Shown piece by piece: positions 28,467 to 32,705 of a DNA stretch of 64,000 nt. Below the pieces are notes generated by a model. The model ran no database searches. It was not told where the DNA came from and saw nothing but the letters and a program-made list of their open reading frames with translations. The position numbers were made by a program, and so were the translations under genes. Source of the stretch: Streptomyces bathyalis (GTDB lineage Bacteria; Actinomycetota; Actinomycetes; Streptomycetales; Streptomycetaceae); NCBI RefSeq assembly GCF_015910445.1, contig NZ_CP048882.1, positions 6,693,501-6,757,500 of the forward strand, read 5' to 3'. Position 1 is the first letter of the stretch. The number at the start of each line of letters is the position of its first letter.

Positions 28467-29890
28467 TCACCGGCCCAGGCTCGCCGCCGTCGGCTGGTGG
28501 TCGCACCGGTCCATCTGTGGCCACGGCACGACATCCCCTGCCGCGCGCTCCACCAGGAGCTGTCTGCCGTGCGCCATCACACCGTACGGCCGCAGTCCGC
28601 ACATGGCCGCGGTCGTGTACGCGGCGCTCAGACTGTTGAGGTCGTGGACCAGGCCGATCCTGAACAGTGAACGCGTCTCCGCGATGGCCTCGTGGTCGCC
28701 CGCGCGCATGACCACGCGCAGTTCGGGCGCGACTGCGAGAGCCGCAACCGAGACCGCGATGTTGTCCCGGTCGTCCGAGGCGACGGCTGCCATTGCCGTC
28801 GCCCGCCCGAGGCCGAGCTTGCGCAGTACGAACCTGTCCGTCGCGTCGGCGACGACGACGGGCAGGCCAAGTGCCTTTGCCAGGCGCAGATTCGGGGCCG
28901 TCGGATCCCGCTCGACCGCGACCACGCCGATGCCCAGAGCCTGCAACTGGGTGCACGCCGCAGCCCCACCTGGCCCAGCCCCACGACCACCACATGACTG
29001 CCACGGGGCAGGGTCCTGGGACCCACGATTCCGACGGGGCGCGGAGCCAGCAGGCGGTCCACCATGCCTGCCGTGAAGACGGCGGTGAAGACGATGGTGC
29101 CGAGCATCGCGAGAGAGGCGAACACCAGATAGGCGTCCGACCCGTGCGCGGTTGCGGGGCCGACGGCGGAAACTGTCCGCGCGGCTTCGAAGAGCGCCTC
29201 TACGGGTGTGCGATGGCGGAGTGCCACCGACCAGATCCAGTCCGCCAGCAGCACCCCGAAGATCCCCGTCAGGCCGGCCAGCATGATCCGCGAACTGCCG
29301 TCGTGCGGTCTCAGCTGTCCTCGCACCTTCCCCAGCCGTGCTCGGTACCTCAGCGAGCGCGGTGGCCGGTAGGGCTGGAGGTGCACGGTCTCCCCGTCCC
29401 AACGGCCACCGAGGAAGCCCGAGGGTGTGCGGGTGATCGCCAGCAACTCCGGTTCGAGGCAGGCGGCCAGGAAGGAGGGAGCGCCGACCTCGGCGGGCGA
29501 AGCGACCTGGCAGTTGGGGACCACGCGCACGAGCTGATCGGCGACCGTGCGGTCGAACACCGCCGCCACGAGCGTCACGTCGGGGTGGATGTGCTCGACT
29601 GCGAGGGCATAGCGCAGGGACTCGGCGTCGCTGTCGAACAGGACCGCGACGCCCGCCACTTCGCCATCGAGCGCCTCGCGCAGCGCTTCGTCCGTGGGGT
29701 GCATGAGGTGGCGTACGCGGTGCCCCGACGACTCCAGGGAGCCGCAGACCTTGCGCGCCACATCCCCGCCGCCGATCACCACGTGGTATTCCGCCGGGCC
29801 CCCGCACCTGGAGGGGGGATGCCCCTCCTCGGTGCGGAGGCTGTCACGGGAACCGGCAGGGGAGTGATCAGCGGTCGGAACGGCAGTCAT
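28467..29890 (-). pseudogene. Two-RCK ion channel-like gene, frameshifted
   Basis: Reads as one channel protein split across two frames. From ATG 29890 the first part has a Rossmann/TrkA-N domain (YHVVIGGGDVARKVCGSLES), membrane segments around MLAGLTGIFGVLLADWIW, a pore-like TVSAVGPATA, and LVFASLAMLGTIVFTAVF. A second TrkA-N domain then starts with VVVVGLGQVGLR. There the frame breaks at about 28957. The other frame resumes with CTQLQALGIGVVAVERDPTAPN and runs to the stop at 28467. One missing base explains it. CASTOR/POLLUX-like or K+ channel RCK proteins have this layout. It is probably inactivated unless it is a sequencing error. Confidence 0.7.
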
Positions 29891-30074
29891 CGGAACGATA
29901 GGGGTCGCACCGCAGGCAGCGGAGATCCGGGCAGTCGCCGCATTGCTGGAGTGGCTCGCCGCAGTGGCAGTGGCAGTGGCGGGGGTCGGCGGTCTCACCG
30001 GCACCGTCGGCACCGTCGGCACCGTCGGAGCCGATGGGCCGGACGCCGCCGAGCCTGTCCGCTTTGACGATCAC
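29868..30074 (-). CDS. Cys-rich miniprotein coupled to amino acid permease
   Basis: 68 residues from GTG 30074, which overlaps the permease stop as GTGA. Sequence order is VIVKADRLGG, a DGADGADGA stretch, HCHCHCGEP, LQQCGDCPDLRCLRCDPY and RSDDCRSDR. Eight Cys in ~25 residues, with C-x2-C, C-x4-C and C-x2-C spacings, suggest a zinc or iron-sulfur site. The HC and DGA repeats come from 6-bp and 9-bp DNA repeats, both multiples of three. The 3' end overlaps the channel gene start. No family recognised; calling it a gene is inference from coupling and motif. Confidence 0.5.
   Translation of the reverse strand: MIVKADRLGGVRPIGSDGADGADGAGETADPRHCHCHCGEPLQQCGDCPDLRCLRCDPYRSDDCRSDR
29961..30027. repeat. 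Short in-frame tandem repeats (6 bp and 9 bp)
   Basis: GCAGTG three times at 29961-29978, and GCACCGTCG three times at 30001-30027. On the minus strand they encode (HC)3 and (DGA)3 of the miniprotein. Confidence 0.85.
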
Positions 30075-31576
30075 GAGTCACCACCCTTGGGAGCGGCGTC
30101 AGCACCGGAGCCCGCGGCGGTCGCGGGCTGGGAGGGTCCGCCGGCGCCGCCCGCCTTCCCCGCTCCCTGTCCGAGCTTGGAGTGCCGGTAGCCGTAGACG
30201 CCGTAGACCGCGAGGCCGAGCGCGAACCAGATGAGGAAGCGGATGAACGTCATGGTCTGCAACTGCGCGACGAGCCACAGCGAGAAGCCGATGCCGACGA
30301 GGGGTACGAGAGGCATTCCGGGGCAGCGGAAAGTACGCGGAAGCTCCGGCGAGCGGTAACGCAGAACGATGACCGCGGCCGAGACGACCACGAAGGCCAG
30401 CAGAATGCCGATGTTGGTGAGCTCCGCGGCCTCGGCGATCGGCATCAGACCCGCGATGCACGCCGAGACGATGCCGATGATCCAGGTGGGCCGGTGCGGT
30501 ACTTCGGTCCGCGGGTGAACCTTCGCGAACCAACCGGGCAGCAGGCCGTCCCGGCTGATCGCGAACCACACCCGGGACGCGCCGAGCATGAAGGAGAAGA
30601 GCACGGTGAGGATGCCGACGATCGCACCGATCGCGATGATGTCGGCGAAGACGGGCAGGCCCACCGACTGGAAGACGGTCGCGAACGGGCTTTCCGCGTC
30701 GATCTTGTTGTAGTGCTGCATGCCCGTCAGCACGGCGCAGGCGAGCAGGTACAGCACCATCGCGATGGCCAGTGACAGCACGATCGCCTTCGGCAGGTTG
30801 CGCTGGGCGTCCTTGGACTCCTCCGCGGCGGTACTCATCGCGTCGTAGCCGAACACGGCGAAGAAGACCGTCGCCGCACCGGTGACCACACCGCCGAAGC
30901 CGTACGGCAGGAACGGGGTGAGGTTTCCGGAGTTGACGTAGAAGGCTCCGACGACGATGACGGCGATGACGATGGCGATCTTCACGAACACCAGAACCGT
31001 TTCGACCCTGGCGCTGGTCTTCATGCCGCGGTTGAGAAGCCAGGCGATCAGCAGGCACAGCAGCGCGGCGAACAGGTCGATGCGGTGTCCGTCGCCCGTG
31101 CCCGGTGCGCCCAGCATCCACGCGGGCAGATCGACGCCGAGCCCCTCGAGCAGGAACGAGAAGTAGCCGGATACGCCGATGGCCACGACGGCGACGATCG
31201 CCGTGTACTCCAGCAGCAGATCCCATCCGATGAGCCAGGCGACGAGCTCACCCAGCACGGCATAGCTGTAGGTATAGGCGGATCCGGACCGGGGGATGAG
31301 TCCCGCGAACTCTGCGTAGGAGAGCGCCGCCGCGGCGCTCGCCACACCGGCCAGAATGAAGGACAGGCTGACGGCGGGGCCCGCGGTGCCGTTGGCCACC
31401 GTTCCGGCGAGAGTGAAGATTCCCGCCCCGATGATCGCGCCGAGCCCGATTGCGGTGAGCTGCCACAGACCCAGCGTGCGCTTGAGCCCGGAGGACTCGC
31501 CCCCACCGGAATCGTCAGTGATCGGTTGCCTGCGGAATACGCCGGTCCGTGGACCGGGTTTGTCGAGAACACTCAT
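30071..31576 (-). CDS. APC-superfamily amino acid permease (cationic type)
   Basis: 501 residues with about 12 membrane helices. The family signature at the first helix is LWQLTAIGLGAIIGAGIFTLAG (~38-59), followed by SGSAYTYSYAVLGEL and FFAVFGYDAMSTAAEESKDAQRN, typical of the CAT/YfnA group that imports basic or neutral amino acids with protons. The C-terminal ~40 residues are a Gly/Ala-rich cytoplasmic tail. AGGAGTAACCG precedes the ATG. It leads a probable operon with the Cys-rich miniprotein and the broken channel gene, all on the minus strand. The transported amino acid cannot be told from sequence. Confidence 0.92.
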   Translation of the reverse strand: MSVLDKPGPRTGVFRRQPITDDSGGGESSGLKRTLGLWQLTAIGLGAIIGAGIFTLAGTVANGTAGPAVSLSFILAGVASAAAALSYAEFAGLIPRSGSAYTYSYAVLGELVAWLIGWDLLLEYTAIVAVVAIGVSGYFSFLLEGLGVDLPAWMLGAPGTGDGHRIDLFAALLCLLIAWLLNRGMKTSARVETVLVFVKIAIVIAVIVVGAFYVNSGNLTPFLPYGFGGVVTGAATVFFAVFGYDAMSTAAEESKDAQRNLPKAIVLSLAIAMVLYLLACAVLTGMQHYNKIDAESPFATVFQSVGLPVFADIIAIGAIVGILTVLFSFMLGASRVWFAISRDGLLPGWFAKVHPRTEVPHRPTWIIGIVSACIAGLMPIAEAAELTNIGILLAFVVVSAAVIVLRYRSPELPRTFRCPGMPLVPLVGIGFSLWLVAQLQTMTFIRFLIWFALGLAVYGVYGYRHSKLGQGAGKAGGAGGPSQPATAAGSGADAAPKGGDS

Positions 31577-32108
31577 CGGTTACTCCTGATCAGCTGATGG
31601 CCTCGGGCGTGCAGAGCCGGAGTAGGCCGCGGGCCGGCCGCAAGGCCGTGCACGGGCGTAGGAGATTGGAGGTCTGCGGGGAACGAAGCCCCGAAGACGC
31701 CGTGACATGGGGACGCAGTACGCGGCACGCAGCCGTGGCCGGTCGATTCGGGAACCGGCTGACCGCACCGCCGGAATCGCTCCCTCGCGGGATGCGGGCG
31801 GTGCGTCACACTCCGGGCCGGATGTCTTCCTGCGGGAATGCGGGGGCACGGCGGCAGTGAGTGACGGGGATTGCCCGGCACGTGAAACTCACGTACGCAG
31901 AAGGTAGAAGCGGACCGCCCTGTTGCCCATGGACGGATGTCCGACGTCAGCGGCCTCGCTTCATACAGATGCTCAAACCGCCCTGCCGGTCCGGGAGTCC
32001 GCCCGCGCCGGCAGGGGCCCGGGAGGACCAGCTGTTCACCCACGGACCCGGGGTCGAGGCCGTAGCCGTTCCGGCCTCTGCCAGGCGTCGTCATGTGATC
32101 ATGTCCGC
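31577..32108. other. Divergent intergenic region with repeat
   Basis: 532 bp between the permease and the CPT-like gene. It contains the right copy of the 40-bp repeat (32037-32076) and, right after it, CTGCCAGGCGTC, the reverse complement of bases at the 3' end of the HIT gene. Promoters for both flanking genes must lie here, but none is clear. Confidence 0.5.
32037..32076. repeat. Right copy of 40-bp direct repeat
   Basis: CACCCACGGACCCGGGGT plus 22 further bases, 35 of 40 identical to the copy at 28362-28401. Confidence 0.7.
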
Positions 32109-32705
32109 ATGGCAGGTGGCCGGATCATCTTTCTCAACGGCACGTCCAGTTCGGGGAAGTCGAGCATCGCCCGGGAGCTGCTCGGCATCCTCGACGACGG
32201 TGTCTTCTTCCACCTGTCGGTCGACAGCTTCAATGCGATGCGCACGAAGCGGAACCTCACGCAGGAGGACCTCGACACCGCTCTGCGGCGGACAAGGATG
32301 GGCTTCCACCGCTCGATCGCGGCCATGGCCGAGGTGGGCAACGACGTCGTCGTCGACCATGTCCTCAGCGAGCCGTGGCGGCTGATCGACTGCCTGACCG
32401 TGCTGCGCCCGGAGGACGTGCTGTTCGTCGGCGTCCGCTGCTCACCGGCCGAACTGGCCCGCCGCGAAGAGGCCCGTGGCGACCGTCCATCGGGCCTGGC
32501 GGCGCTCCAGTACGACATCGTCCATCAGCACGGCGACTACGACTTCGAATGCGATACCAGCACGGCGGGCCCCCGCGAATGCGCCGAGCTGATCAAGGAG
32601 TTCCTCCCGCGGCGGCCGGCGACCACGGCCTTCACCCGCCTCCGCGCACGGTACTTGGCAGCCGGTGACGAACCACCTGAGCGGGGACACACGCGAGCCA
32701 CGTAG
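32109..32705 (+). CDS. Chloramphenicol phosphotransferase-like P-loop kinase
   Basis: 198 residues from ATG 32109. Walker A is GTSSSGKSS (11-19). The next strand holds HLSVDSFNAM with Asp39, which matches the catalytic Asp of chloramphenicol 3-O-phosphotransferase. Later pieces VLFVGVRCSPAELARREEARGDR and YDFECDTSTAGPRECA are also family-like. CPT proteins phosphorylate chloramphenicol in its producer, but many homologues have unknown substrates, so resistance is only possible. A longer frame from 31923 lacks start signals. The gene lies just outside the repeat-bounded block and may have come with it. Confidence 0.82.
   Translation: MAGGRIIFLNGTSSSGKSSIARELLGILDDGVFFHLSVDSFNAMRTKRNLTQEDLDTALRRTRMGFHRSIAAMAEVGNDVVVDHVLSEPWRLIDCLTVLRPEDVLFVGVRCSPAELARREEARGDRPSGLAALQYDIVHQHGDYDFECDTSTAGPRECAELIKEFLPRRPATTAFTRLRARYLAAGDEPPERGHTRAT

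Follow-up and report, generated by a model that had tools for sequence, protein, structure and literature searches.

The window, i.e., the whole 64,000-nucleotide stretch of Streptomyces bathyalis DNA analysed here, encodes on its minus strand a small Cys-rich protein (hereafter, the miniprotein) between an amino acid permease gene and a gene for a TrkA_N/RCK protein (hereafter, TrkA). The features of the locus are the following:

28467-29891, minus strand: TrkA_N/RCK – 2TM pore-like – RCK gene, its TrkA homology split over two frames, of which the C-terminal one matches PF02254 at 1.1e-15
29868-30074, minus strand: Cys-rich miniprotein gene, 68 residues, GTG start and TGA stop, based on the ORF and its relatives
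29883-29969, minus strand: conserved 29-residue core of the miniprotein, CHCG...CGDC...RCLRCDPYRSDDC, residues 36-64, based on alignment and pN/pS
29889-29891, minus strand: ATG of the TrkA gene, lying within the miniprotein's SDDC codons, read from the sequence and placed likewise in 18 of 21 cores
30071-30074, minus strand: GTGA overlap of the miniprotein start with the permease stop, read from the sequence
30071-31576, minus strand: APC amino acid permease gene (AA_permease_2), seen in this position only in this genome
30078-30088, minus strand: Shine-Dalgarno-like AAGGGTGGTGA ahead of the miniprotein GTG and within the permease end, read from the sequence
31927-31976, minus strand: two-box element TTGAGCATCTGTA...GTCGGACATCCGTCCATGG, its boxes 32 bp apart, ahead of the permease gene, found by consensus match

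The miniprotein frame opens with the GTG at 30072-30074, which shares GTGA with the permease stop, and by eye no other ATG, GTG or TTG lies in frame; AAGGGTGGTGA ends three bases 5' of this GTG. An earlier, sequence-only reading of this DNA had described a 68-residue frame starting on the permease stop, with eight cysteines, the motifs HCHCHCGEP and CGDCPDLRCLRC, and frame-preserving repeats of 6 and 9 bp, all of which are present as described: the 9-bp repeat encodes Gly-Ala-Asp and the 6-bp repeat encodes His-Cys three times. The latter produces HCHCHC at a place where the relatives presented below carry a single C-x-C, and one of the eight cysteines is therefore derived from the repeat. The C-terminal tail of the window miniprotein also diverges from those of its relatives in the alignment. 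Pfam and NCBIfam profiles returned no family for the window miniprotein up to E 1 in either library, and no paper on this protein family was found in the literature searched. Its structure model, built without metal, is poor (pLDDT 60.3, pTM 0.32) and thus gives no fold backing for zinc binding. The gene next downstream, which overlaps the end of the miniprotein ORF, had not been mentioned in the earlier reading.

A pattern scan of one genome per species yielded 322 matches, 16 of which encode relatives of the miniprotein, all on contigs of other Streptomyces. The pattern they share is CxCG-x5-CxxC-x3-RC-x2-C-x-P-x3-[D/E]DC, mostly in the form CHCG...CDPYRSDDC, preceded by a variable N-terminal part, and its seven cysteines are invariant in the 17 aligned rows (the 16 relatives and the window). 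With at least four Cys/His residues in CxxC or CxC pairs, this conserved set is of the kind used to recognize zinc-binding microproteins. Over 21 core sequences, pN/pS is 0.33, a value biased low since the extraction pattern fixes some positions, and it falls to 0.09 in the five DPYRS positions that this pattern left free, in contrast to 0.92 in the nearly unconstrained loops between the cysteines. Synonymous variation occurs at six of the seven Cys codons, and amino acid identity is 0.69 in the miniprotein frame versus 0.49 and 0.53 in the other two frames, which contain stops. A profile search of 392 Streptomyces genomes, including that of the window, recovered the core at E 0.001 or better in 10 of them; some genomes of this genus sample recur among the 16 contig loci (e.g., L116 with L044), and the two sets cannot be counted as independent. 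A single-sequence protein search of 100 genomes and a DNA search of the 392 genomes each gave, beyond the window, only weak matches, which were attributed as a group to chance or low complexity. From these sequence comparisons, we conclude that the miniprotein ORF is a genuine, overlooked conserved gene, in agreement with its initial description as a real small protein.

That description had further presented the miniprotein as a possible metal-binding partner of the permease, coupled to it in translation, and suggested looking for small frames behind this permease family in Streptomyces genomes. Three features of the window are consistent with such a partnership: the GTGA overlap, the Shine-Dalgarno-like sequence at the end of the permease gene, and the presence of the operon-type element upstream of that gene. 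Of the 392 genomes, 162 (own included) have a member of the permease family at E 1e-150 or better, with about 66-72% identity among the matches listed. However, the 29 best-scoring permease loci from other genomes contain neither the miniprotein within flanks of up to 1.5 kb (best E 0.059) nor the two-box element, and conversely no permease was detected at E 1e-5 near the miniprotein relatives (0/16 loci, within flanks of up to 4 kb). From that proposal, the metal-ligand-like Cys pattern stands and the permease as partner falls; in this genome, the overlap of the permease stop with the sole start codon available to the miniprotein is confirmed. Frameshifts or non-conservation of the Cys pattern in other permease-bearing genomes had been named in the earlier reading as grounds for rejection, and the absence of the miniprotein from the permease loci read counts in this sense against the permease link and not against the gene itself. 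We therefore regard a metal-binding partner of the permease as a very improbable function for the miniprotein.

The neighbour that accompanies the miniprotein is TrkA. Homology to TrkA lies beside the miniprotein in all 16 loci, downstream in 15 and upstream in one, although in L052 it is present only in pieces. When ORFs of at least 80 codons with coding-like composition were clustered, TrkA was the only coding cluster common to at least three of the 16 loci and the window (15 loci), the sole other cluster being its own antisense frame; the window and L052, where the frames are broken, fall outside this TrkA cluster. Among the 10 genomes of the genus sample that carry the core (own included), nine have it beside TrkA homology, reduced to a 57-residue piece in L122, and L123 has none. 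Of the 392 genomes, 32 contain a TrkA homologue at E 1e-60 or better, and the miniprotein is present in eight of the 11 genomes (own included) whose TrkA homologue has 71% identity or more. The 30 TrkA loci that were read (L124-L153) include eight with the miniprotein, none of them among the 19 more distant loci (L135-L153); the close homologues L124, L125 and L127 also lack it. The miniprotein label requires four changes on the TrkA tree, which has 13 open forks and long branches. On the evidence of these gene neighbourhoods, the constant neighbour of the miniprotein is the TrkA_N/RCK protein and not the permease. In L125, traces of the miniprotein core remain upstream of TrkA, and its last codons (DLDRTDDC) cross the TrkA start.

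In the TrkA protein, a Rossmann domain at the N-terminus is followed by two transmembrane helices and a pore helix, predicted with low confidence, and then by a TrkA_N domain at the C-terminus. PF02254 scores 4.4e-22 in L050. In the model of the fused protein of Streptomyces natalensis described below, the predicted helices span residues 240-265, 269-282 and 293-320, where pLDDT reaches only 35-67 (in blocks of ten); the model as a whole is mediocre (pLDDT 58.2, pTM 0.55), with about 28 in its Cys-rich part. GsuK resembles this type of TrkA protein both in sequence over the TM2-RCK part (5.1e-8, from residue 242 on) and in the fold search, in which the TrkA gating ring and GsuK came out on top with TM-scores of only 0.3-0.4. 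In contrast to GsuK-type channels, the TrkA protein has one Rossmann (RCK-like) domain before the pore and one after it. Canonical K+-selective channels have a selectivity filter of the TVGYG (VGYG) type. No filter of this type was found in the window or the 20 close homologues listed, which have VGP instead (e.g., L050), the close homologues in the form T[VL][AS][TA]VGP, and other variants occur in the distant homologues, L045 included. The ion selectivity of this TrkA/RCK family is thus uncertain, since VGP replaces VGYG in the close homologues, which also sets them apart from GsuK-type channels.

The two genes overlap in a characteristic way. In the 18 cores with a nested start, the TrkA ATG lies within the SDDC codons, about 20 nt before the miniprotein stop, and the three remaining cores are fused (L041), reversed (L045) or part of a decayed locus with a TrkA remnant (L122). 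In S. natalensis (L041), the miniprotein and TrkA are joined in one open frame of 617 codons, although an indel error may explain this fusion. At L045, from Streptomyces sp. JJ36, TrkA comes first and the miniprotein follows with an ATGA overlap, preceded by a Shine-Dalgarno sequence, AAGGAGAG; this TrkA belongs to a distant clade of the tree, a placement that rests on long branches. The nested start raises the alternative of a leader ORF, in which the translation of the miniprotein and not its product would matter, with ribosomes being brought to the TrkA ATG and expression made sensitive to cysteine or redox state. Cys-rich leader ORFs act as attenuators in mycobacteria, and such a role would agree with the position of the ATG inside the ORF, with the lack of a purine-rich Shine-Dalgarno sequence over some 20 nt upstream of this ATG, and with an open miniprotein ORF beside broken TrkA frames. 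However, the leader peptides of cysteine attenuators contain a run of Cys codons in a short ORF, whereas the cysteines of the miniprotein are dispersed at a fixed, metal-ligand-like spacing, and the DPYRS residues, which are not cysteines, are under the strong purifying selection reported above. In addition, the core persists in the fusion with TrkA (L041), in the gene that follows TrkA and has a Shine-Dalgarno sequence of its own (L045), and at loci without TrkA nearby (L155 and L156, see below); being fused, downstream or without TrkA, these four cores cannot be TrkA leaders. DPYRSDDC is kept in L041 and L045, which need no nested start, and is therefore conserved as protein and not merely for the start codon nested in it. 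A function as leader alone appears decidedly unlikely.

Upstream of these operons, we found an element of two boxes with the consensus TTGAGCATCTGTC followed by GTGTGACATCTGTCCATGG, spaced by 32-33 bp from CATC to CATC, which is about three helical turns. It is present at 14 of the 16 contig loci (L038-L044, L046-L049 and L051-L053) and at L126, L128 and L131, is absent at L045, L050 and L122, and also precedes the close TrkA genes that have no miniprotein (L124, L125 and L127); in six loci, the first box lies 246-378 nt from the miniprotein start. To derive the consensus, 13 contig loci were combined with L124, L125 and L127, and the window, L041, L043, L044, L126, L128 and L131 had no part in it. 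The window copy has four mismatches in 32 positions, compared with best sums of 11-13 in five shuffles of the whole window, and a pattern fitted to this copy matches only once in the genome. Neither the 29 permease loci nor the 19 distant TrkA loci yielded the element (best 13 in each set). Rfam gave no match in positions 31500-32300 of the window and, at the gathering threshold, none in the loci of eight of the 16 relatives. The element looks like a promoter or operator for a putative regulator. Since it precedes the permease gene here and the miniprotein operon in the relatives, the permease gene seems to sit inside a pre-existing operon: it probably entered an operon already made up of the element, the miniprotein and TrkA in this lineage, and is probably a passenger of the operon in the window organism rather than a conserved partner.

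In this assembly, the window TrkA gene has a frame break between about 28955 and 28994, so that its two parts lie in different frames. The TrkA frame is also broken in L044 and L052, and only a remnant is left in L122, while at each of these four loci the miniprotein frame is uninterrupted. The window locus could then be a decaying remnant, with TrkA inactivated by the frameshift and the miniprotein left without a function, as the repeat-expanded HCHCHC and the divergent tail of this copy might also indicate, together with the bare core traces upstream of TrkA in L125. Against such decay, the seven cysteines and DPYRSDDC are intact in the window, and the frameshift may be a sequencing error. 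We consider a functionless remnant unlikely.

The two gene orders, the single fusion, the nested translation, the shared element and the existence of precedents for each half of the proposal favour a direct role of the miniprotein with the RCK protein. In such a role, the seven conserved cysteines would hold one or two Zn2+ ions, and the miniprotein would be translated before the TrkA gene and in coupling with it, would bind the RCK protein and would act as its metal- or thiol-responsive subunit or assembly factor. On balance, we lean towards this interpretation, in which the miniprotein would be a microprotein that binds metal and serves the RCK protein as an assembly factor or a detachable subunit. 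Several observations weigh against it: three close and 19 more distant TrkA loci lack the miniprotein, TrkA is broken or reduced to a remnant at four loci with an open miniprotein frame, L123, L155 and L156 show no TrkA in the stretch read, the element is absent at L045, L050 and L122, the structure model is poor, the loops between the cysteines are nearly unconstrained, the fusion in L041 may be an indel error, and the tree position of L045 depends on long branches. More tentatively, and with clearly lower confidence, the miniprotein may sense metal or redox state as a detachable part of an unusual RCK-gated ion channel. It would be a Cys-rich module of 50-70 residues, supplied as a separate protein whose gene spans the channel start codon, as an N-terminal fusion or from a downstream coupled gene, through which zinc or thiol state would control ion flux in Streptomyces.

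Three known systems offer comparisons for these proposals. Mistic is a membrane-integrating protein and is not known to have a Cys core of the miniprotein type. Its gene in Bacillus subtilis, mstX, forms an operon with a single further gene, yugO, which lies directly downstream and encodes a putative K+ channel with a TrkA domain; the authors proposed that MstX mediates the assembly of the YugO channel (PMC3667857). The likeness to the miniprotein and TrkA is one of gene arrangement, i.e., a small gene upstream of a gene for a TrkA-domain channel or channel-like protein, and the difference is that the miniprotein gene is nested over the start of its partner and can be fused to it or reversed. 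Zinc binding within an RCK protein itself is described for GsuK, whose RCK2 domain holds Zn2+ by two His and two Cys (PMC3510474). Finally, HVO_0758 of Haloferax volcanii is a zinc-finger micro-protein of fewer than 70 residues with four essential cysteines, from a group with two C(P)XCG motifs (PMC10716476). The miniprotein is likewise under 70 residues long with paired cysteines, and zinc is bound in proteins of the HVO_0758 type; the miniprotein family differs in its seven cysteines, single CxCG and DPYxSxDC tail. A conserved microprotein family without a Pfam or NCBIfam model is now tied to a concrete candidate partner, namely an RCK protein that resembles a channel and has a degenerate pore. 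Should a metal or thiol signal be carried by the miniprotein, an input to RCK gating would come from a separate, overlapping small gene. More generally, a small ORF that seemed to be the partner of a permease acquires another meaning once its relatives are compared.

Outside Streptomyces, 296 genomes drawn from the class contained two convincing members of the miniprotein family, in which the seven cysteines are kept and the His of the core is not conserved. One (G642; loci L155 and L164, at 2675-2860 of L164) is encoded between aldehyde dehydrogenase and aminopeptidase P genes with a TGATG start overlap, and the other (G518; loci L156 and L165) near a DUF3303 gene; TrkA homology was not found in loci L155 and L156. 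Pfam profiles returned no family up to 0.01 for the distant member of L164, and a search of the family around G642 recovered the gene in one of four genomes, G642 itself. Of the 11 genomes with class-level matches, seven had matches with E above 0.002, which were set aside as chance; five of these seven contain internal stops.

These two loci bear on a further alternative, namely that the protein is a stand-alone, zinc-ribbon-like microprotein with general nucleic-acid or protein binding, its TrkA link being mainly a matter of operon history in Streptomyces. The members beside aldehyde dehydrogenase, aminopeptidase P and DUF3303 genes agree with it, as does a related Cys motif in a different frame of G197. 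This frame, of 170 residues (L123, 1147-1656, minus strand), contains CEDCGTVLALCVQCGEASRCLVCDPY followed by a hydrophobic stretch, has no Pfam match, and may represent this Cys domain joined to a membrane segment; the match in G197 is weak, and no TrkA was present in the stretch of L123 that was read. Nevertheless, the miniprotein adjoins TrkA genes of two distant clades, in either order and once as a fusion, which exceeds what one inherited operon would leave. We hold the stand-alone explanation to be improbable, and the association with the RCK protein is retained as the preferred one. In G642, the domain is used outside TrkA operons, in what seems to be an operon for amino acid or peptide catabolism.
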